The notes beneath the pieces were generated by a model that was given only the letters and a program-made list of their open reading frames with translations, made no database searches and was not told where the DNA came from. Position numbers and translations under genes: made by a program. Of a DNA stretch of 41,585 nt, positions 1 through 8,039 are shown in pieces (position 1 is the stretch's first letter; every line of letters starts with the position of its first letter). Origin of the DNA: Planctomycetaceae bacterium (GTDB lineage Bacteria; Planctomycetota; Planctomycetia; Pirellulales; PALSA-1355); the NCBI GenBank assembly GCA_003153375.1, contig PLYM01000170.1, forward strand, positions 1 through 41,585, written 5' to 3'.

Positions 1-125
1 TAAGAGCGCCATGACGGTTGCGCCCGATTGATAAGAACATCCGTTGCCCCAACATCGCCGTAGGCCGCAAGTACCCCTTTGGTCAATTGGCCAATTGTCT
101 GTCGCACAAATTCTCCAATGTCCAT
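1..125 (-). CDS. Partial hypothetical protein (N-terminal 41 residues)
   Basis: A minus-strand frame opens at an ATG at 125 and stays open to the left edge, giving 41 residues that begin MDIGEFVRQTIGQL and contain a GVLAAYGDVGATDVL stretch. The frame has no stop, and the amphipathic N-terminus looks coding. An AAGGGA lies about 15 bases upstream of the ATG, rather far for a ribosome-binding site. The gene lies 50 bases downstream of the membrane-protein gene that ends at 176, same strand, so the two may be co-transcribed. The start resembles small bacterial proteins that begin M-[DE]-[IL]-x-[EQ]-F-[IV], but I do not recognise a family. The frame contains a perfect 14-bp palindrome (84-97), which probably falls there by chance. 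Confidence 0.45.
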   Translation of the reverse strand, partial: MDIGEFVRQTIGQLTKGVLAAYGDVGATDVLINRAQPSWRS

Positions 126-175
126 TTCTTGAATTTCCCTTCGCGCTAGAACCTATGGGTCAAACCCCGAGCCGG

Positions 176-595
176 TCATTTGCGCAGCTTTTCCAGCAGC
201 ATGCGCGTCGCCCGCGTGTTCTCTTCGATGTCGACCAGCACGAGAATCAGCCCCGCACTTAGAAACGCGCTGAATGCCGCGCCGATGCCCCCGAGGATAA
301 ACGCAAAGCCTGTCATCAGTTTGCCATCGGACGCCAGGAACACGGCCAGCAGTCCACAGATGAACAAGTCGAGAACGCCCCCCCAGATCATGGCCGAAGC
401 AAACCAACGCAGGCCGCTATGCTTCTTCCCGCTTGAAGCCGTGGCCGTTGCCTTCGATTTGGCCGACAACTGCGGGGGCGCTTTGGCCATTCGCGCTGCC
501 GGATCATCGTAGAGATCAGGATCCAGGGCCTTCGCTGGCTTTGCCTTAGCCTGCTTGACCATCGCGTCAACGTCGAACTCCGGTTCTTTGGCCAT
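176..595 (-). CDS. Hypothetical two-helix membrane protein
   Basis: A 139-residue protein. The first 60 residues are charged and rich in Lys, Ala and Pro (it starts MAKEPEFDVDAMVKQAKAK). Two hydrophobic segments follow, around residues 68-88 and 95-122, the second with a GGIGAAFSAFLSAGLILVLV character. A short basic tail (residues 123-139) closes the protein. The ATG at 595 is preceded by AGGGGA at a good distance. The likely topology is a cytoplasmic N-terminal tail and a helical hairpin in the inner membrane. I recognise no family. It sits between a small HTH gene upstream and a truncated gene downstream on the same strand, so it may belong to a small operon. Confidence 0.7.
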   Translation of the reverse strand: MAKEPEFDVDAMVKQAKAKPAKALDPDLYDDPAARMAKAPPQLSAKSKATATASSGKKHSGLRWFASAMIWGGVLDLFICGLLAVFLASDGKLMTGFAFILGGIGAAFSAFLSAGLILVLVDIEENTRATRMLLEKLRK

Positions 596-713
596 GGCAA
601 TCCCCTGGCGTGTTGCGGGATGTTCTCGGGCGCCGCATCATTTGACCCCGGCCGCCAGCGGCAAGCAAGGTTTTTTGGGCTGGCTTGAAACCGCCCCGGG
701 CGTGGCGGGAGGG

Positions 714-899
714 CTAGGGCTTCAGCGATAGCCCGAGATACGCCGCGATCTTGGAAGCGTTGGAAAGCCGCATGTCGGCCCCAGCGAGGAATCGCGTGAT
801 GGTCGGCCCGGGGACGCCAGTGCGCCGCGAAAGCTCTCCAGCGGAAAGCCCACTGTCCCAAATGGCGCGGCGGAGGATGTCTTCTAAGGGCCGTTGCAT
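714..899 (-). CDS. Small XRE-type helix-turn-helix DNA-binding protein
   Basis: A 61-residue protein that consists of little but a helix-turn-helix. Residues 18-60 follow the Cro/C1-XRE pattern: SGLSAGELSRRTGVP, then a recognition helix around GPTITRFLAG, then NASKIAAYLGLSL. I chose the ATG at 899 because the longer in-frame extension upstream runs through the promoter region and looks non-coding. Compact XRE proteins of this size usually act as dimeric repressors of an adjacent promoter. Here a near-consensus promoter with inverted repeats lies about 40-70 bases away, pointing the opposite way. Regulation of that promoter is inferred; the HTH fold is clear from the sequence. Confidence 0.8.
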   Translation of the reverse strand: MQRPLEDILRRAIWDSGLSAGELSRRTGVPGPTITRFLAGADMRLSNASKIAAYLGLSLKP

Positions 900-940
900 C
901 CTCAAGTCTAGCTCACGGCCGCGGTCAGTACGAAAACGTA

Positions 941-968
941 TTGACAGGCCTGTTTTCAGGCATATACT
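941..968 (+). promoter_or_regulatory. Sigma70-type promoter with palindromic spacer
   Basis: TTGACA (941-946) and TATACT (963-968) are separated by 16 bases, which is close to the housekeeping consensus. The spacer holds two overlapping inverted repeats: ACAGGCCTGT (944-953), a perfect palindrome, and GCCTG-TTTT-CAGGC (948-961). They are well placed to be operator sites for the divergent HTH protein encoded at 714-899. The promoter would drive the small-gene cluster from 1101 to 1944. The motifs are visible; the operator role is inferred. Confidence 0.65.
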
Positions 969-979
969 GGCGGTCTGTT

Positions 980-1096
980 GGCTGGCGCCTTCTCCAAAAA
1001 TCAAGCGTTCCCCGCGGTGGCATTCTTTGGTGCCAGCCTTACTTGCCGCCGGCGGGGGCGCTGTTTTGCCCGGCTCTCCCGGGCTGAAAGGCTGGC
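980..1096 (+). promoter_or_regulatory. Structured 5' leader with duplicated anti-RBS segment
   Basis: The roughly 125-base leader between the promoter and the ATG at 1101 contains GGCTGGC twice (980-986 and 1090-1096) and its exact complement GCCAGCC once (1032-1038). The second copy lies just before the start codon. The middle segment could therefore pair either with the 5' copy or with the ribosome-binding region. A separate 6-bp hairpin, GCCCGG/CCGGGC, spans 1068-1084. This would permit two mutually exclusive folds. A regulatory role is inference only. Confidence 0.35.
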
Positions 1097-1100
1097 AATC

Positions 1101-1397
1101 ATGGCCACCGCTACACGTGCTCGCTCCCGTTCGTCGAAGGCTTCCCCCAAAGCCGCTAGCCGCGCCGCGAATGCATCGAAGCGCGTCACGGATTCGGACT
1201 GCATGGTTTTCCTGGTGACCGACAACAGCGACGGCTCGGTCGATGAAGCCGAGTTGGTCCACGTTGCCGCTACTGCTCGCGAAGCCGAGATTTTCGCAAG
1301 CGGCTTCAATGCGGCCATGAACTGGAACACCTACGAAGGCCAAGTTGCGCGGCCGGGCACGCCCGACGCGGACTATCTGAAAGTAGGTGCCGCATGA
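1101..1397 (+). CDS. Hypothetical small protein with basic N-terminus (paralogue A)
   Basis: A 98-residue protein starting at the ATG at 1101. An upstream TTG in frame would begin almost at the predicted transcription start, so I rejected it. Residues 1-29 are strongly basic and rich in Ala and Ser (RARSRSSKASPKAASR), possibly binding nucleic acid. The rest is a compact alpha/beta-looking segment with VFLVTDN and EAEIFASGFNAAMNW. The same pattern (short beta strand, AE, beta strand, then A-x-x-FA-x-GFNA) recurs in the next gene, so the two are diverged tandem paralogues. The stop codon overlaps the next start as ATGA (1394-1397). No family recognised. Confidence 0.65.
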   Translation: MATATRARSRSSKASPKAASRAANASKRVTDSDCMVFLVTDNSDGSVDEAELVHVAATAREAEIFASGFNAAMNWNTYEGQVARPGTPDADYLKVGAA

Positions 1398-1747
1398 CGA
1401 CGCGAGCGAAAGCACGTTCCAACGGTCCACGGAAAACGAAGGCGCAGCGCACTGCCGTTTCGGCAACACTCGACCTTGCCACCCTCGACCGAACCGTGTG
1501 GGTTCTCGACGGTCGAGGGACGCATGCGGAAGTTATGTTCATAGCCCCGAGCCCGGAGTATGCCAAGGCGTTTGCCGATGGCTTTAACGCACGGTCCGGG
1601 AGTGTCGGGGGTTGGGAGAACAACGATGGCGACTTCGCAGAAGCCGGATCTGAAGTGCTGGTGAAGCTGCTCAGCAATCGCGACGAGCATCACGATCCGG
1701 AGCGTGTGCGTCAAAACCGCCTGGAAAAGCTAGGGGGTGCAGCATGA
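1394..1747 (+). CDS. Hypothetical small protein (paralogue B)
   Basis: A 117-residue protein whose ATG overlaps the stop of the preceding gene (ATGA), so translation is probably coupled. It shares its layout with the upstream gene: a basic N-terminus (TTRAKARSNGPRKTKAQR), a VWVLDG strand and a helix ending EYAKAFADGFNA, which matches EAEIFASGFNA in paralogue A. It has an additional acidic and basic C-terminal part (residues 75-117) that A lacks. The matched helix and beta strands suggest a small shared domain that duplicated and then diverged. No family recognised. Its stop codon again overlaps the next start. Confidence 0.65.
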   Translation: MTTRAKARSNGPRKTKAQRTAVSATLDLATLDRTVWVLDGRGTHAEVMFIAPSPEYAKAFADGFNARSGSVGGWENNDGDFAEAGSEVLVKLLSNRDEHHDPERVRQNRLEKLGGAA

Positions 1748-1944
1748 GCAAGGCACGTGTCGAGATTGAACCCGTGTTTGAAATTCTCATTACCTGCAAG
1801 GGCAAGATTGAACGCACCGGCCAGATTCTCCGCGAGCAAGAGGTGGCGCCTTATGTGGGGTCGTTCAACAGTCTGAGCCATCGAACTGGACGCACGGCCA
1901 CCGTCGAGCCGTTGCGGCTATCACGTGTCGCGGTCGCGCGATGA
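1744..1944 (+). CDS. Hypothetical 66-residue protein, third gene of small operon
   Basis: The ATG at 1744 overlaps the upstream stop codon (ATGA), making a three-gene translationally coupled cluster with the two paralogues. The 66-residue product starts MSKARVEIEPVFEILITCKGK. It looks like a small soluble alpha/beta protein with a basic C-terminal tail (LRLSRVAVAR). No family recognised. The overlap architecture is the main support that it is translated. Confidence 0.55.
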   Translation: MSKARVEIEPVFEILITCKGKIERTGQILREQEVAPYVGSFNSLSHRTGRTATVEPLRLSRVAVAR

Positions 1945-2376
1945 AAGCGGCGAGTTGATTTCGAGCCCCTTGCCCGTCGCGTGGCGGGCGGGGGCATCTT
2001 TTGACACAGCGCGCAAAAAGGGCCTGCCCAGTAATGCAACAAACCAGGACAGGCCCCTATGGAACCCCGCGGGAGCCTCGCAAAAAGTTCGCGCGGGGTC
2101 ACCGTTCCCTATATCAGTAGGCACCAAAACTCTGGAAAGCGGACGAAGAATGCGCGACAACACAAAGCGGTCCGCGGCCTTGAAGGTTCAAACCAAGGAA
2201 GTAGGCCGCACGGCGAGCCCTGCCCGTCGCGATGCCCGGAGCTAAGGCGAGCTGGAGCCAGCGAAGAAGAGATTCAGCGAATGACGGGCGAGGTGGACGA
2301 AGATGCTGGCGATAAAGGATAGAAGGAAATGCCCGATGCGCAGCTGGCGGCCGGCGGCGCGTTAACCGCCAATTGC
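1945..2376. other. Gene-poor stretch with hairpins and doubtful ORFs
   Basis: No convincing gene covers these 430 bases. Two overlapping plus-strand frames (from 1925 and from 2059) have atypical composition. The end of the second, after a possible frame change near 2240, reads plausibly as coding (RRAGASEEEIQRMTGE), so a decayed small gene is possible. The clear structure here is a pair of hairpins (2015-2099), listed separately. Confidence 0.4.
2015..2056 (-). terminator. Intrinsic terminator on minus strand, no obvious upstream gene
   Basis: Perfect 7-bp arms GGGCCTG (2020-2026) and CAGGCCC (2050-2056), followed on the minus strand by TTTTTG. The plus strand has no U-tract, so the terminator serves minus-strand transcription. 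A second perfect hairpin with 8-bp arms (ACCCCGCG 2064-2071, CGCGGGGT 2092-2099) lies immediately upstream on that strand. Together they look like the 3' end of a small structured RNA. Confidence 0.55.
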
Positions 2377-2613
2377 TCACGTTCCGAGTCGCACTTTTAA
2401 GTCGAAGAACTCGGTCAGCAGTTGGTCCCATTTCTGGGCCCGCTCTTGGCGGGTGCCGCCGAGCTGGGTCAACTCGGTTTCGATTGATTTGATGCGGTCG
2501 CGGAGTGCGGCTCGCTCATCCGGGCAGCTCTTGAGAGGGTCGAGCATGGACGCATCGAGATCTGTTTTCGGTAAGCACACGCCTCCGTCTTTATTTAGGC
2601 CGCCGTTCGGCAT
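2377..2613 (-). CDS. Hypothetical small coiled-coil protein
   Basis: A minus-strand frame. The last 56 residues, from Met at 2547, look genuinely coding: a heptad-like charged helix, ERAALRDRIKSIETELTQL, then ERAQKWDQLLTEFFDLKVRL. The start could be the ATG at 2613 (78 residues) or the one at 2547 (56 residues); neither has a well-spaced Shine-Dalgarno, so the start is unresolved. The helical part resembles the small protein encoded on the opposite strand at 2854-3018 (LR-x(2)-[IL]-x-S-[IV]-E and a C-terminal [DE]-Q-[IL]-L motif). No family recognised. Confidence 0.45.
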   Translation of the reverse strand: MPNGGLNKDGGVCLPKTDLDASMLDPLKSCPDERAALRDRIKSIETELTQLGGTRQERAQKWDQLLTEFFDLKVRLGT

Positions 2614-2709
2614 TCCTGACAGGAACGGCCCCAGGCGACGGACTATAGCGAGAATCGCCGCGGAGCGTGATCGAGGTTTTTCGAGACGCAAGCAGCATGC
2701 ACAAACGAC

Positions 2710-2751
2710 AAAAAAAGCCTGCCCCCCGTGTGTTCGCAGGGAGGGGCAGGC
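2710..2751 (-). terminator. Strong intrinsic terminator on minus strand, orphan
   Basis: Perfect 9-bp arms GCCTGCCCC (2717-2725) and GGGGCAGGC (2743-2751), followed on the minus strand by seven T residues (2716-2710). It is textbook in form and resembles the element at 2015-2056. No convincing minus-strand gene lies immediately upstream; the nearest annotated genes there are on the plus strand. Confidence 0.65.
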
Positions 2752-2853
2752 CCTCGTGCCGCGGGTGCCGTCCGTTGCCCGAATCAGCACCGCAGCGAAG
2801 GTCTACAGGCTATCGTCACGTCGAGCCAATTTCAACCAAACGGAGTGCGGAAC

Positions 2854-3018
2854 ATGGACAACGAATCGGAACTACGCAAGAAGCTGGCCAGCGTCGAGGC
2901 CCGGCTCGAGCGTCTAACGCAAGCCCTTGGCCGCGTCACTGGCGAGCGGGATCAGATTTTGCGGCAACTGTTGGACTTGGAGGGGGCCGAGTCTTGCAGG
3001 TTCGTTGGGGCGCGGTAG
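2854..3018 (+). CDS. Hypothetical small coiled-coil protein
   Basis: A 54-residue protein starting at the ATG at 2854, with GGAG ten bases upstream. Most of it is a single amphipathic helix with heptad spacing (ELRKKLASVEARLERLTQAL), followed by RVTGERDQILRQLLDLE and a short tail ending CRFVGAR. It probably oligomerises as a coiled coil. It sits directly beyond the minus-strand terminator at 2710-2751 and 42 bases before the next plus-strand gene. No family recognised. Confidence 0.55.
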   Translation: MDNESELRKKLASVEARLERLTQALGRVTGERDQILRQLLDLEGAESCRFVGAR

Positions 3019-3060
3019 GGTGCCGGTTTCAAATCTCATTTTCAACCCGGAGGCTAGTAA

Positions 3061-3345
3061 ATGAGCGACTTTGACAATCCCCATATTGAAGCGACCCATG
3101 ACCAGGGAGAGCGTGAAGGTGAAGCGTGGGCTCGATCCGCCAAACCAGAAGAGCTAGAGCGAATGGTGGCGCAAATCGACGAATCGATGAGACTGCATAA
3201 CGGTGTCGCCTTCGGCGAAATTGCGGACATCATCACCGCACAACACCCCGGGGATCCCGGCGCGAGATTTAGTGCCCCACTGAATGCCGGGTTCATGCAG
3301 GGCATATTGAAGGCACATCGGCAAATTATTGGCGAGAAGAATTGA
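3061..3345 (+). CDS. Hypothetical 94-residue acidic protein
   Basis: The ATG at 3061 is preceded by GGAGG with good spacing, so the start is well supported. The product starts MSDFDNPHIEATHDQGEREGEAWARSA and is soluble, acidic and mainly helical: EELERMVAQIDESMR, then a segment ending FMQGILKAHRQIIGEKN. There is no signal peptide or membrane segment. It follows the coiled-coil gene on the same strand after 42 bases. I do not recognise a family. Confidence 0.65.
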   Translation: MSDFDNPHIEATHDQGEREGEAWARSAKPEELERMVAQIDESMRLHNGVAFGEIADIITAQHPGDPGARFSAPLNAGFMQGILKAHRQIIGEKN

Positions 3346-3467
3346 CCGATCGCTTAGGGGCCCGCTAGATGCACGACCGAGGGCAACGACCTGGAACACG
3401 TTGAAGGCGCTTTGCGCTCATCCTGGGCGATTCTGGTGGGCCGTTCTGTGCGCACTGGTCTCGCTTG

Positions 3468-3662
3468 CTATTCGCCCGCGAGTTTCGCCGCCTTTGCACG
3501 ACGGATCGCCCGCTGACGGTTATGGCGAATCGTCTCGCTTGGCTTCACGTAGTATTCGCGTTTCCTCATTTCTCTTTTCGTACCGCTCCGCTCGACCAAT
3601 TTGCGAAACCGTCGGACCGCTTCCTGAATGGATTCACGATCCCGAACTGGCATGTAAACCAC
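3468..3662 (-). CDS. rpsU: Small ribosomal subunit protein bS21
   Basis: A 64-residue basic protein with the bS21 pattern [21 protein letters not shown], then [15 protein letters not shown] and a C-terminal cluster of Arg, Lys and Ala. bS21 binds the 30S platform near the anti-Shine-Dalgarno region and takes part in initiation. I chose the GTG at 3662: AAGGAG ends five bases before it, and the resulting start, M-V-Y-M-P-V-R-D, keeps the N-terminal length usual for planctomycete bS21. An internal ATG at 3653 is the alternative. The gene lies 124 bases downstream of tRNA-Ala on the same strand, with a terminator in between, so it probably has its own promoter. Confidence 0.88.
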
Positions 3663-3737
3663 TGATTCTCCTTGCGTTGGTGCGTTACTCTGAATCCTAG
3701 CACCGGCATAGCACCAAGCCGTTTCTAGCACGACTCA

Positions 3738-3777
3738 ACAAAAAGAGCCTCGCCGCAACTCATGTTGTGACAAGGCT
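3738..3777 (-). terminator. Intrinsic terminator behind tRNA-Ala
   Basis: On the minus strand the arms AGCCT (3773-3777) and AGGCT (3746-3750) enclose an inner stem ACAAC/GTTGC around the loop ATGA, followed by CTTTTTGTTG. It starts nine bases after the tRNA 3' end, so it most likely terminates the tRNA transcript before rpsU. Confidence 0.7.
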
Positions 3778-3782
3778 TTCCA

Positions 3783-3858
<76 letters not shown>

Positions 3859-3872
3859 GCGAACGAACTCGC

Positions 3873-3901
3873 AAATTATCACTCTGGGTTCAACGTGTCA
3901 A
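3873..3901 (-). promoter_or_regulatory. Promoter of tRNA-Ala
   Basis: On the minus strand TTGACA (3901-3896) is followed after 17 bases by TAATTT (3878-3873), placing the start of transcription only a few bases before the tRNA 5' end at 3858. Strength and spacing fit a stable-RNA promoter. Confidence 0.75.
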
Positions 3902-3946
3902 GTTGGATGCGGACCGCATTCGGCCGGGAGACGCGGACGAAAAATT

Positions 3947-4324
3947 ATGAGAAACGGCAGGCATTGCGCAATGCAGGCAGGGCTGATGCGGAAGTTTCGC
4001 CGCTCGTTGGCCCGCAAATTACCTCTCGCCGGCGAGCATCGGAACGCTGGTCTCAACCAGGAAAAAGCCGTCGCGGAATGTTGCCACGCCGGCCGTCTGG
4101 TCCCGAATATCGAGGCTACTTCAGCGGCAGAAGCTGCGCGAGCGGTCCACGGTAGTGATCAACGATACCGCATCGACGCATCACAGGCCGCCCATCTGGC
4201 TGGAACCCGCTACCAAATGGCAGCGTCTTTGAGCCGCTTGATGGATGAAGGCCAACCGATCTACTTGTGGATTGCCTCGCAAGGGCTCGAACTCGTGGCG
4301 GGTCCCTGGGGCTGGCAATCATGA
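3947..4324 (+). CDS. Doubtful hypothetical ORF
   Basis: An open frame of 125 codons in an otherwise gene-free stretch. The C-terminal half reads plausibly as protein (residues 70-118, with AGTRYQMAASLSRLMDEGQP and ending GPWGWQS), while the N-terminal half is arginine-rich and atypical. A shorter start at Met14 (3986) is possible. There is no clear ribosome-binding site, and its stop codon touches the extended -10 promoter of the next gene. No family recognised. Confidence 0.3.
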   Translation: MRNGRHCAMQAGLMRKFRRSLARKLPLAGEHRNAGLNQEKAVAECCHAGRLVPNIEATSAAEAARAVHGSDQRYRIDASQAAHLAGTRYQMAASLSRLMDEGQPIYLWIASQGLELVAGPWGWQS

Positions 4325-4330
4325 TATAAT
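4322..4330 (+). promoter_or_regulatory. Extended -10 promoter for the Tat-exported protein gene
   Basis: TGATATAAT gives a perfect TATAAT hexamer (4325-4330) with the upstream TGN extension. No good -35 hexamer is visible, which is usual for extended -10 promoters. The predicted transcript start is about 50 bases before the ATG at 4388. Confidence 0.55.
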
Positions 4331-4387
4331 TCCAGCGACTGATGGAGTTTTGAACAATTCGGCGATCCAATCGTGGAGGGCGGCGCC

Positions 4388-5905
4388 ATGTTCGGAAGTT
4401 CGCGGAGACGGTTTTTGCAAAACGCGGCCGTGGCCGGAGCGGCGGCCGGGCTGGGAGACCTTTCCTTCCTGACGAATCTCAAGCCAGTGTCGGCTGCCGA
4501 GGCGGCACCGAATCCGCAGCTGGTGCGGTTGCAGCCCGAGATCGAGCCGATCGTGCGGCTGTTGGAAGATACGCCGCGCGAAAAGCTGCTCGAAGAGGTG
4601 GCCGGCCGGATTCGTGGTGGGTTGAGTTATCGCGACGTGCTCGCCGCGCTGCTGTTGGCCGGCGTGCGCAACGTGCAGCCGCGGCCCGAGGTCGGATTCA
4701 AGTTTCATGCGGTGCTAGTGGTCAACTCGGCTCACCTCGCCAGCCTGGCATCGCCCGACGCCCACCGTTGGCTGCCGATCTTCTGGGCGCTCGACTATTT
4801 CAAGGACGCGCAGGCCCAGGATGTTCGCGAAGGCGACTGGTCGATGCGGCCGGTCGACGAAGCATCTGTTCCGTCGGCCAGCCAGGCACGCGCCGCATTC
4901 AGCCAGGCCATGGATCAGTGGGACGTGTCGAAAGCCGATGTGGCCGTCGCCGGCCTGGCCCGCACGGCGGGTGTCAACGAAATCTTCGAATTGCTGTTCC
5001 GTTACGGCGCTCGCGATTTTCGCTCGATCGGCCACAAAGCGATTTTCGTGGCCAATAGCTTGCGCACGCTCAACGTGATTGGCTATCACTATGCCGAGCC
5101 GGTGCTCCGCTCGCTGGCCTACGCCTTGCAATTGCACGAGGGCGATAATCCGGCCAATCGCGATGGCGAGCCCGACCTCCCCTGGCGACACAACATCGAA
5201 CGAGCGCGCAAGTTCCGCGCCAACTGGCTCGAAGGTCAGCTCGACTCGGGCGCCACGACCGAAATGCTTGCCAGCCTGCGCCAAGGAAACCAAGACGAGA
5301 CGGCCGAGAAGGTCGTCGAGCTGGTTAATCGCCAGATCGCTCCCCAGGCGATCTGGGATGCGATGTTCGTCGGTGCCGGCGAGTTGCTGGTGCGCCAGCC
5401 TGGCATCGTCGCCCTGCACGCGGTCACCACGAGCAACGCGCTGCGCTATGCCTGGGACACGACCGACAGCGACGATACGCGACGCATGATCCTGCTGCAA
5501 AACGCCTCGTTCCTGTCGATGTTTCGTCAGGCGATGAGCGGCCGTGGCTCGGTGAAGGAATTCAAGCTCGATGAAATGCAGCCTACTTCGTTGGAGGGTT
5601 CTCAGCCGGTCCAGGAGATCTTTGTCGACGTCAGCCGCGACAAGATGAAAGCGGCCGGCAAGATGCTGAGCTACTTGCAAAGCCATCCCGATCCGAAAGA
5701 GCTGATCGACGCGGCGCGGGTGTTGATTTTCCTCAAGGGCAACAACGCCCACGACTATAAGTTCAGCTCGGCGGTGCTCGAAGACTACCAAAACGTCTCG
5801 GCTGCCTGGCGTGGCCGCTACCTGGCCTCGAGCGTCTTCAATCTGCGCGGAGCCGAGGGAGATGACAACGCCTTGGTGCAGCGAACGCGGGCGGCGCTGG
5901 GGTAA
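4388..5905 (+). CDS. Tat-exported protein of unknown family
   Basis: A 505-residue protein. The start is the ATG at 4388, with GGAGGG seven bases before it; an upstream GTG at 4373 would overlap that site. The N-terminus SSRRRFLQNAAVAGAAAG is a twin-arginine signal with a hydrophobic core, and cleavage is likely near VSAAEAA, so it is exported folded, perhaps with a cofactor. The mature part is mostly helical, with an early VGFKFHAVLVVNSAHLASLA segment and a later MFVGAGELLVRQPGIVALHAV segment. Conserved-looking His residues (FKFHA, NSAH, ALHAV) could bind metal, but this is a guess. It ends eight bases before the convergent M81 gene. No named domain recognised. Confidence 0.85.
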   Translation: MFGSSRRRFLQNAAVAGAAAGLGDLSFLTNLKPVSAAEAAPNPQLVRLQPEIEPIVRLLEDTPREKLLEEVAGRIRGGLSYRDVLAALLLAGVRNVQPRPEVGFKFHAVLVVNSAHLASLASPDAHRWLPIFWALDYFKDAQAQDVREGDWSMRPVDEASVPSASQARAAFSQAMDQWDVSKADVAVAGLARTAGVNEIFELLFRYGARDFRSIGHKAIFVANSLRTLNVIGYHYAEPVLRSLAYALQLHEGDNPANRDGEPDLPWRHNIERARKFRANWLEGQLDSGATTEMLASLRQGNQDETAEKVVELVNRQIAPQAIWDAMFVGAGELLVRQPGIVALHAVTTSNALRYAWDTTDSDDTRRMILLQNASFLSMFRQAMSGRGSVKEFKLDEMQPTSLEGSQPVQEIFVDVSRDKMKAAGKMLSYLQSHPDPKELIDAARVLIFLKGNNAHDYKFSSAVLEDYQNVSAAWRGRYLASSVFNLRGAEGDDNALVQRTRAALG

Positions 5906-5913
5906 GCACCGAC

Positions 5914-7380
5914 TCAGATCGGCTCGAACGGAAACAGCGGCTGGCGGCGGTGGTGGTATTCGAGCCGGCCGAGATCGGCGGTTGTGACCCCCGGCGTGTT
6001 GACGCGCAGCAAGTGCGAGCAAACCGGAGCATAGGCAGCCACCGGCGCGTGGACTCCCTTGGCCACGAGTATGTGAAAGGCGGTCGGATCGACGTGGCAG
6101 CATCTCAGTTGTTCGAGGCTGAAAGGCAACGCGCGTCGCGAGGTGAGCATGACCGTCGGACCCGAGTCGAATTCGACGACCACGGTCGGACCCATGTCAT
6201 AGGTCGTCCGCCCGCCGTGCCGAGCTTGCGTCTCGCTGTAGCGACCGTCGTAAAGCCCGCGCACTCGAACGCTGGCCGAGATGGGCGATCCGTGCAGCTT
6301 GTCGGTCTTGCCGCCCATTTCCAGCGTCAGCCGAGCGCCAATGCCGGCCTTGCGGGCGCGCTCGACCGCCTCGGGATCATAGAGACAGACGAACGCCTTG
6401 TGCACCCCGTGCCGGCAAATCGACTCCAAGAGCACGGTGCCATCGCCGGGCGAACCCCCGCCGACATTGTCGCCCATGTCCAGCAGGCACACCGGAGACG
6501 GCAATTGCTTGGCCTTCTCCACGGCTTCGTCGACGTCGAGCAAGTGTCCGACGAAGGCCTCGCGCTGGGCGATCAGATACTCGGCAACCTCGTGGGCCAG
6601 CCTGGCGGCCAGATCGGGATTGTCGTTCGTCACCACCAGCACGCTGGAGCCCATCTCCTTGACGTCGGCATAGGGAAACCCCAGCAGCAAGCTGTTCGAG
6701 ATGATGTGTTTGTCGGCCAACATGTCGTCCAGCGACTCATAGCAGGCGCGTAGCGGCGAGGCCGCGGTGCCCTGCCGCTCGATGTTGATGGCCAGCGGCG
6801 GAAACGCGGCGGCTTGCGTGGGACGCACTTCGCCGCGCAAGATGCGGGCCATCAGGCGAGCCGCCTCGCGGCCGCGCTCGCGTTGATCGAGGTGTGGGTT
6901 CGTTCGATAGGCAATCAGTGCGTCGGTCGCCCGCACCATTTCTTCCGAGAGATTGGCGTGCAAGTCGAGGGTGCCGACGATCGGCGTGAGCGGGCCGACT
7001 CGGGAGCGCAATTCGCGCAGCCATGCCCCGTCCATGTCGCGACAGCTCTCGGCCACGGCCGCGCCATGCGGCGCGACGAGCACTCCGGCCAGATCGCCGG
7101 CCTGTTTGAGCTCGGCCAGCATCGCGCCCAACAGCTTGTTGAGCGTGGGGCCCGTCACGACACCACTGGGAGGCGCCCAGGCCAGGAAGATGGGCACCGC
7201 CTGCAGTCCGGCTTCCTCGAGTCCCTGAAAAAAGCCGCCGACCTCGTGGTGTGACGCGGCATACTGCTCGCGGATGGCCGCGCCCGTCAGGATGGCGCCC
7301 TTTTCGAAATCCTCCCACGTCGTCGGCGTGCCGAGGAACGTGTTCGATTCGTGTTGCAACGCGATGATGCCGACTCGCAC
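5914..7380 (-). CDS. M81 family metallopeptidase (MlrC-like)
   Basis: A 488-residue protein matching the MlrC/M81 family over its full length. It starts RVGIIALQHESNTF, the family hallmark, and carries GTLDLHANLS, then AYRTNPHLDQRERG and a GDNVGGGSPGDGT loop. These His, Asp and Glu residues are the likely zinc ligands and catalytic residues. M81 proteins include the last enzyme of microcystin degradation and many hydrolases of unknown substrate. There is no signal peptide, so it is cytoplasmic. The start is a GTG at 7380 whose G is the last base of the TAG of the upstream RraA-like gene, so translation is coupled. A role in turnover of a small amide or peptide-like compound together with the RraA-like enzyme is inference. 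Confidence 0.9.
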   Translation of the reverse strand: MRVGIIALQHESNTFLGTPTTWEDFEKGAILTGAAIREQYAASHHEVGGFFQGLEEAGLQAVPIFLAWAPPSGVVTGPTLNKLLGAMLAELKQAGDLAGVLVAPHGAAVAESCRDMDGAWLRELRSRVGPLTPIVGTLDLHANLSEEMVRATDALIAYRTNPHLDQRERGREAARLMARILRGEVRPTQAAAFPPLAINIERQGTAASPLRACYESLDDMLADKHIISNSLLLGFPYADVKEMGSSVLVVTNDNPDLAARLAHEVAEYLIAQREAFVGHLLDVDEAVEKAKQLPSPVCLLDMGDNVGGGSPGDGTVLLESICRHGVHKAFVCLYDPEAVERARKAGIGARLTLEMGGKTDKLHGSPISASVRVRGLYDGRYSETQARHGGRTTYDMGPTVVVEFDSGPTVMLTSRRALPFSLEQLRCCHVDPTAFHILVAKGVHAPVAAYAPVCSHLLRVNTPGVTTADLGRLEYHHRRQPLFPFEPI

Positions 7381-8039
7381 TAGAGTACCCCGTATTTGCG
7401 AAACACGTCCGTTGCCTTCATGCCCGCGCGAATCTCGTCGCGGACCCGGTTTTCCGCCGTTACTTTTTCCAACGCCCTGGCGATCGTTTCTTGCTCGATG
7501 GCCCGCGGCACGACGACCGCGCCATCGGCGTCGGCCAGCACCAGGTCGCCCCGCTCAATCCGCACTCCGCCGATGTTGACCACCACATCGATCGCCGTGA
7601 CACGCTGGCGGTGCATGCTATCGCGGGGACAGGTCGACCGCGCGAAGACGGTGAAGCCGAGCTGGTCCATCTTATCGATATCGCGAACCGCTCCATCGAC
7701 GAGCGCTCCGGCACAGCCTCGGTTGCGAGCGGCGGTCGAGAGCAGTTCGCCCCAGACGCCCGATCGCACGGACCCGCCGGCGGCAGCGACGAGAACGTCG
7801 TCGGGCTGACACTCGTCGACTGCCTGGAGCTCGAGCTCGTACGGTCGGGGGTCGATCTCGTCCAACTCCTCCCACTGCGTGGTCTTGGCCCGGCCGAACA
7901 GCAGCGCAGCGCCGCTGACGCGATGTAATTCCAGGGAAAGGACCTGGTCCCGGTGGCCCAATGCGTCCAAAACGTCGGCCACGACCGCCGAGTAGAGCGT
8001 GCAGCGCAACTGGGCAAAGTTGACTTGGGCGGCGGTCAT
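7380..8039 (-). CDS. RraA-like family protein (possible oxoacid aldolase)
   Basis: A 219-residue protein of the RraA/4-hydroxy-4-methyl-2-oxoglutarate aldolase fold. It shows VADVLDALGHRDQVL near the N-terminus, an AAGGSVRSGVWGELLSTAA phosphate/carboxylate-binding loop, and GALVDGAVRDIDKMDQLGF, in which the R-D pair matches the catalytic Arg and Asp of the aldolases. GDLVLADADGAVVVP is also family-typical. Some members inhibit RNase E instead; the catalytic loop and the pairing with an M81 enzyme favour a metabolic role on a 2-oxoacid-like substrate. It starts at an ATG and overlaps the downstream M81 gene by one base. Confidence 0.85.
   Translation of the reverse strand: MTAAQVNFAQLRCTLYSAVVADVLDALGHRDQVLSLELHRVSGAALLFGRAKTTQWEELDEIDPRPYELELQAVDECQPDDVLVAAAGGSVRSGVWGELLSTAARNRGCAGALVDGAVRDIDKMDQLGFTVFARSTCPRDSMHRQRVTAIDVVVNIGGVRIERGDLVLADADGAVVVPRAIEQETIARALEKVTAENRVRDEIRAGMKATDVFRKYGVL

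Follow-up and report, generated by a model that had tools for sequence, protein, structure and literature searches.

The window, by which we mean the whole analysed stretch of DNA (41,585 nucleotides), carries three tandem open reading frames, A, B and C, each overlapping the next by ATGA (at 1394 and 1744). They belong to a single-unit layout in which a divergent XRE gene (714-899) and a promoter (941-968) are followed by A-B-C and a terminator-like hairpin (1967-1994). Sister loci of the same design lie on two other contigs of this genome, C22 and C204, and a further sequence, C282, has pieces in common with the window. The features concerned are as follows.

714-899, minus strand: XRE/Cro-type repressor gene, 61 aa, divergent from the operon (HTH_26 1.1e-5, HTH_3 2.7e-5; phage repressor PHROGs)
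926-961, no strand: candidate operator palindromes, CAGTACG-AAAA-CGTATTG (926-943, one mismatched pair), ACAGGCCTGT (944-953) and GCCTG-TTTT-CAGGC (948-961)
941-968, plus strand: sigma-70-type promoter, TTGACA-16-TATACT, an 11/12 consensus match
975-1100, plus strand: 5' leader of A, its transcription start guessed from the promoter
1101-1397, plus strand: gene A, 98 aa, a basic tail and a module with EAEIFASGFNA
1394-1747, plus strand: gene B, 117 aa, a diverged paralogue of A
1744-1944, plus strand: gene C, 66 aa, predicted beta-beta-alpha-beta, a relative of 76-aa proteins of C22 and C204
1967-1994, plus strand: terminator-like hairpin of 12 pairs, 9 of them G-C, which may end the unit
2854-3018, plus strand: 54-aa ORF with a coiled-coil look, also in C282 (79% DNA identity over 164 columns)
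3468-3662, minus strand: rpsU (bS21) copy bordering the element region (Ribosomal_S21 1.7e-13)
3785-3858, minus strand: tRNA-Ala(GGC), a possible attachment site

Promoter, leader and gene junctions

The preliminary description had read this stretch as three small genes with two ATGA overlaps under a strong promoter, and the ORF coordinates and junction sequences bear out the first part. The A/B and B/C junctions are nearly identical (GTAGGTGCCGCATGA vs GGGGGTGCAGCATGA), both with a purine-rich ribosome-binding stretch, and because this stretch lies within the junctions the A and B coding sequences both end in GAA. The codon-usage score is positive for A, B and C; as the start it prefers for B is internal (1535), and as rpsU and the XRE gene went unlisted by the same scan, codon usage is weak evidence here. 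The promoter was also rightly called strong, its 11/12 match being absent from all 1000 shuffled versions of the 195-bp intergenic region, and it adjoins the repressor gene. Exact palindromes across the promoter do not exceed those of shuffles in the window (193/1000), C22 (125/1000) or C204 (999/1000), and we therefore infer repression from the gene order and the kind of regulator.

Within the leader, positions 1031-1040 are an exact 10-bp complement of 1088-1097, a segment that overlaps the ribosome-binding site of A; in this post hoc comparison 13 of 2000 shuffles reach 10 bp. The predicted leader fold pairs the 1031-1040 region with a segment near 979 instead, and the same complementarity test on the C22 and C204 leaders gave no such pairing. 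A translation switch of A by way of the 1031-1040/1088-1097 pairing is a possible reading of this complementarity. At the other end of the unit, the hairpin scan returned 5 such sites vs 5.0 expected in shuffles, and the hairpin at 1967-1994 is thus not significant alone; its sequence is also present in C282 and C22.

Protein families of the operon

The first reading of A and B as diverged paralogues is confirmed by their pairwise comparison (BLASTP E 4e-7; full length Z 11.8, 0/5000 shuffles) and by that of the module alone (A 31-98, B 30-117; Z 9.5, 0/5000 shuffles). It had also given the two proteins a shared basic N-terminus and a module ending in FA-x-GFNA. The module holds, its motif being EAEIFASGFNA in A and EYAKAFADGFNA in B, whereas the N-termini taken alone have no significant likeness (411/5000 shuffles), so that the shared basic N-terminus amounts to a compositional likeness and homology there is not proven. 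Synonymous sites between A and B are saturated and dN is 0.74 (93 aligned codons), which makes the duplication an old one through which both frames stayed open. The pair probably arose by tandem duplication. The structure model of A is too poor (mean pLDDT 50.5) for superposing the two modules, and places module strands at 34-41 and 47-56 and a helix at 59-73.

A further A/B relative is the 115-aa protein P0001 of C22, which also has a basic tail (A-P0001 0/2000, B-P0001 3/2000 shuffles). By BLASTP, B matches P0001 at E 6e-5 and the match of A is not significant (E 8.8). P0001 was chosen by a profile match (E 4.1e-4, one genome in a search over 392), hence these pair tests are not selection-free. 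Its helix motif is doubled in tandem, as AAQGFVAGFNA and AAQGFVEGLNL (L020:13311-13658). The basic tails of A, B, P0001 and the C-like protein P0002 suggest that these proteins may bind nucleic acid.

Judged by its sequence, C is not detectably related to A or B (1936 and 960 of 5000 shuffles, respectively; no BLASTP match; profile-profile E 0.28). It does have relatives at the sister loci, namely P0002 of C22 (76 aa, basic tail) and P0003 of C204. Against P0002, 0/2000 shuffles reach the score with gaps and 0/2000 without, and BLASTP reported no match; against P0003 the figures are 0/2000 with gaps and 1/2000 without. P0003 was found with a profile containing P0002, to which it is 92% identical, and selection on this 76-aa gene between C22 and C204 is purifying (dN 0.07, dS 0.43). 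AlphaFold2 run on the single sequence of C predicts beta-beta-alpha-beta in its best model (mean pLDDT 84.5), with the five models spanning 50.6-84.5. The C model found no significant match in Foldseek against the PDB (best E 0.84, EF-G; ClpS and Dmd also listed), in VIA (best Z 5.7, ClpS) or in BFVD (best E 0.13), which does not prove a new fold. In sequence searches of solved structures the A/B profile drew no match at E 1 and the C profile a single one, to a designed protein (E 0.14).

The one outside likeness of C is to the flagellin hook IN motif. When the C-type profile was run over 296 genomes, three of the five outside matches, the two best included, were flagellin IN motifs. Additionally, 30 IN motifs were gathered by PF07196 alone, with the strand picked by motif pattern, and scored against C, P0002 and P0003; the scores were low (6.6, 5.4 and 9.3 bits) and were reached by 1, 1 and 0 of 300 shuffles, of which 248, 282 and 274 were reported at all. 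A single hhalign comparison of the C-type proteins with the IN motifs gave E 0.0024 and a probability of 12%. Three of the 30 motifs (L060, L064 and L065) are not independent, as they belong to proteins that had given the earlier matches or to sisters of these. In the reverse test two of these three took the top scores (23.1 and 20.5 bits); once they are left out, the best is 10.4 vs 9.7 for the best shuffle. The same motifs had no likeness beyond shuffles to B or P0001, and A went unreported. Pfam lists no Flagellin_IN match for C at E 1, nor for P0002 or P0003 at E 0.5, and as no Pfam cut-off is met the likeness of C to the IN motif is one of small folds, not of family membership. The genome itself has zero PF07196 matches at E 0.001. 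Overall, C-type proteins have in common with the PF07196 motif a weak in-register likeness of about 40 residues ending in N...G..A.V, with C predicted as beta-beta-alpha-beta, but C is a free-standing 66-aa protein and A and B are without the likeness.

The preliminary description had recognized no known family in A and B, and this also stands after searches of Pfam, PHROGs, PADLOC and NCBIfam and of genomes. In those four libraries A, B and C have no notable match, the lowest E being 0.073 (A with ketol-acid reductoisomerase, far below cut-off). The genome searches covered 97 genomes with A, 97 with B and 146 with C, and 392, 396 and 296 with profiles A2, A3 and A5, in overlapping sets. Outside its own genome, the A/B family had no credible homologue in the A, B and profile searches; the profile searches scored the best-ranked first-look candidates per genome (e.g., 11/24), such that distant members may be missed. 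For C, the 146 genomes and the profiles gave no credible homologue outside its own genome except the flagellin motif. Genome-contig scans with A and A2 and viral-contig scans with B, A3 and A4 were likewise negative, as were phage searches with B, P0001 and P0002 and the plasmid search with B.

Several candidate matches were rejected. Those of A in C77 of its own genome and of B in G027 are chance matches with a stop inside, and those of A in G038 and G085 were taken as chance, the G085 frame being open over 3231 codons. The A3-profile matches in five other genomes lie in long unrelated-looking frames (four) or contain a stop (one); L022 and L024 among them are presumably PurD. Of the A5-profile matches, both set aside as chance, L035 lies between two genes and L037 contains a stop, and the viral matches L031/L032 to P0002 cover 37 residues within a large protein. 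In DUF551-bearing lambdoid phage proteins (L012-L016) the 13-residue EAEIFADGYNAAM nearly equals EAEIFASGFNAAM of A, however, in two members scanned this stretch sits beside the DUF551 domain, and the likeness was judged to be chance (E 0.8 in the phage collection).

Sister loci, a decayed copy and the flanks

C22 and C204 each carry an XRE gene with a divergent small-gene operon. The XRE protein of the window is homologous to both (Z 11.4 with C22 and 17.6 with C204; 0/2000 shuffles each), and homology holds among the three loci (Z 11, 18 and 24). The promoters match the consensus at 11/12 in C22 (1/1000 shuffles) and 12/12 in C204 (0/1000), both with a 16-bp spacer like that of the window. 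In C22 the operon combines the A/B-like P0001 with the C-like P0002, and in C204 the position of P0001 is taken by a different 181-aa gene. Besides its operon, C22 contains DUF6876 and ASCH; some kilobases off it also has a tape-measure gene and a short integrase, and these two may belong to something other than the element of the operon. C204 contains DUF6876 and ASCH proteins closely matching those of C22 (93% and 83% identity), an integrase that adjoins tRNA-Val, an AbiD/Abi_2 gene, a DUF3854/DUF927 protein with a PHROG primase match and an M41-like gene. The AbiD/Abi_2 gene near the C204 operon is located at L030:11011-11910 (PADLOC AbiD 1.3e-60). As gene content and order vary among the three loci, a common function of A, B and C does not follow.

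With small overlapping genes beside an XRE gene, and AbiD near a sister operon, the unit could also be taken for a toxin-antitoxin or small defence module carried as cargo of the element, in which A, B and C make one inhibitory complex together with the regulator. Dmd, a phage antitoxin, is among the weak fold matches of C (E 1.5 to 2.3), but these Dmd hits fall short of significance and are only some of many. In addition, the XRE gene is not part of the operon but divergent from it, and at E 1 PADLOC has no defence-system match for any of the three proteins. We regard such a module as unlikely.

C282 (3207 bases) has six pieces in common with window 704-3443. Five are in the same order and the sixth, window 2120-2164, is out of order, so that C282 is not wholly colinear with the window. 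At most 8 bases separate the match to window 704-807 from the match to 1961-1993; C282 is without a match to 808-1960, and the block absent from it comprises A-B-C, the promoter and the beginning of the repressor gene. This block absence fits one unit in a decaying family of elements, and another rearrangement is also possible. The window copy may itself be a non-functional remnant. A dead remnant in the fuller sense, with the operon a decaying scrap whose product is of no use, is unlikely. It would agree with the absence of the A-B-C unit from C282, whose alignment with the gene that follows contains a gap of 2 bases that would shift the frame, and with the few tiny positive-score ORFs that are all that 1945-3400 holds. 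Nonetheless, the promoter, the three open frames and the junctions of the window are all intact, and A and B have both stayed open over the long divergence recorded in their saturated synonymous sites and dN.

The surroundings of the unit contain several other repeated or distinctive stretches. A 38-bp repeat at window 3406-3443 occurs again at C282:1520-1557 and partly at C22:10632-10665. Two G+C-rich leader-like stretches, at 2015-2164 and 2700-2853, follow A-runs (AAAAAGGGCCTGCCC, AAAAAAAGCCTGCCCC) and lie 5' of tiny ORFs; the first recurs in C37 and part of it in C282. Rfam listed three matches, of which the tRNA alone passes the curated score; the other two, both BcKCsr2 on G+C-rich stretches, were taken as chance. 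Beside the repressor gene, the minus strand carries a 139-aa ORF (176-595) with a membrane-protein look and no notable family. Further DNA copies of rpsU occur in the same genome in C37, C22 and C227 (85-91% to the window copy), with a more distant one in C273.

Marks such as DUF1501-like neighbours make the organism probably a planctomycete. The chromosomal gene at 4373-5905 has an orthologue in four of six genomes queried, and in three of these four (G002, G003 and G004) the upstream DNA was read. The 7 to 8 kb read upstream in each has no blastn match to window 1-4000, and the orthologue there has other upstream neighbours and no tRNA. The sole other genome of the genus that was searched has no match to the gene at E 1e-20. 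The copy in the window is without an integrase or replication gene. Its contig begins at base 1 of the window, so the element is cut off on its left side, and the window and C204 contigs both stop before the far side of the element. The mobile-element setting proposed at the outset is upheld by the sister loci, by the integrase near the C204 operon and by the absence of the region upstream of the orthologue in 3/3 relatives. It is extremely improbable that A, B and C are non-mobile host genes of a lineage. The G+C content at 500-base window starts 1-3001 (0.57 to 0.63), somewhat below the 0.60 to 0.69 at 4001-7501, would allow it, but the searches made found A/B/C in neither the one other genome of the genus nor two further ones of the family, and several related loci occur in one genome together with integrase and phage genes.

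Role of the operon and comparison with known systems

One strong promoter precedes three overlapping genes and a terminator-like hairpin, with a divergent XRE gene and sister loci of the same design. Considering all of the above, A-B-C is probably a repressor-controlled early or accessory operon of an integrated, partly decayed, lineage-specific element of the integrative-element or phage-satellite type. The XRE protein would silence the promoter in the integrated state and induction would release it. With their basic tails and predicted beta-beta-alpha module, A and B may then bind nucleic acid or each other, and C may be their small beta-beta-alpha-beta partner. Together they would serve the element after induction, in copying, in excision or in countering the host or another phage, and not the host. 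We consider it very unlikely that A/B and C are two new small-protein families which act as one three-part effector complex in a lineage-specific satellite, where C would be a free-standing beta-beta-alpha-beta module like flagellin IN, a CI-like switch would release the complex and an RNA leader would further gate it by hiding the ribosome-binding site of A.

For the probable early or accessory operon, two families without an entry in the libraries searched gain a defined unit (repressor gene, promoter, three genes and hairpin) along with sister loci, which makes their role directly testable. If A/B and C do serve a satellite-like element, they would be an addition to a group on which a brief, title-level search found little literature.

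Switches of the CI/Cro and Stl types govern the repressor-controlled early operons of temperate phages and phage satellites. The present unit differs from these in that the A, B and C proteins match no known phage or satellite family and in that the element of the window is incomplete. It resembles them in the small XRE gene divergent from a strong promoter with small overlapping genes, and in the integrase and tRNA beside a sister locus (C204). The A, B and C proteins are new to the libraries searched, and their genetic setting is of a known kind.
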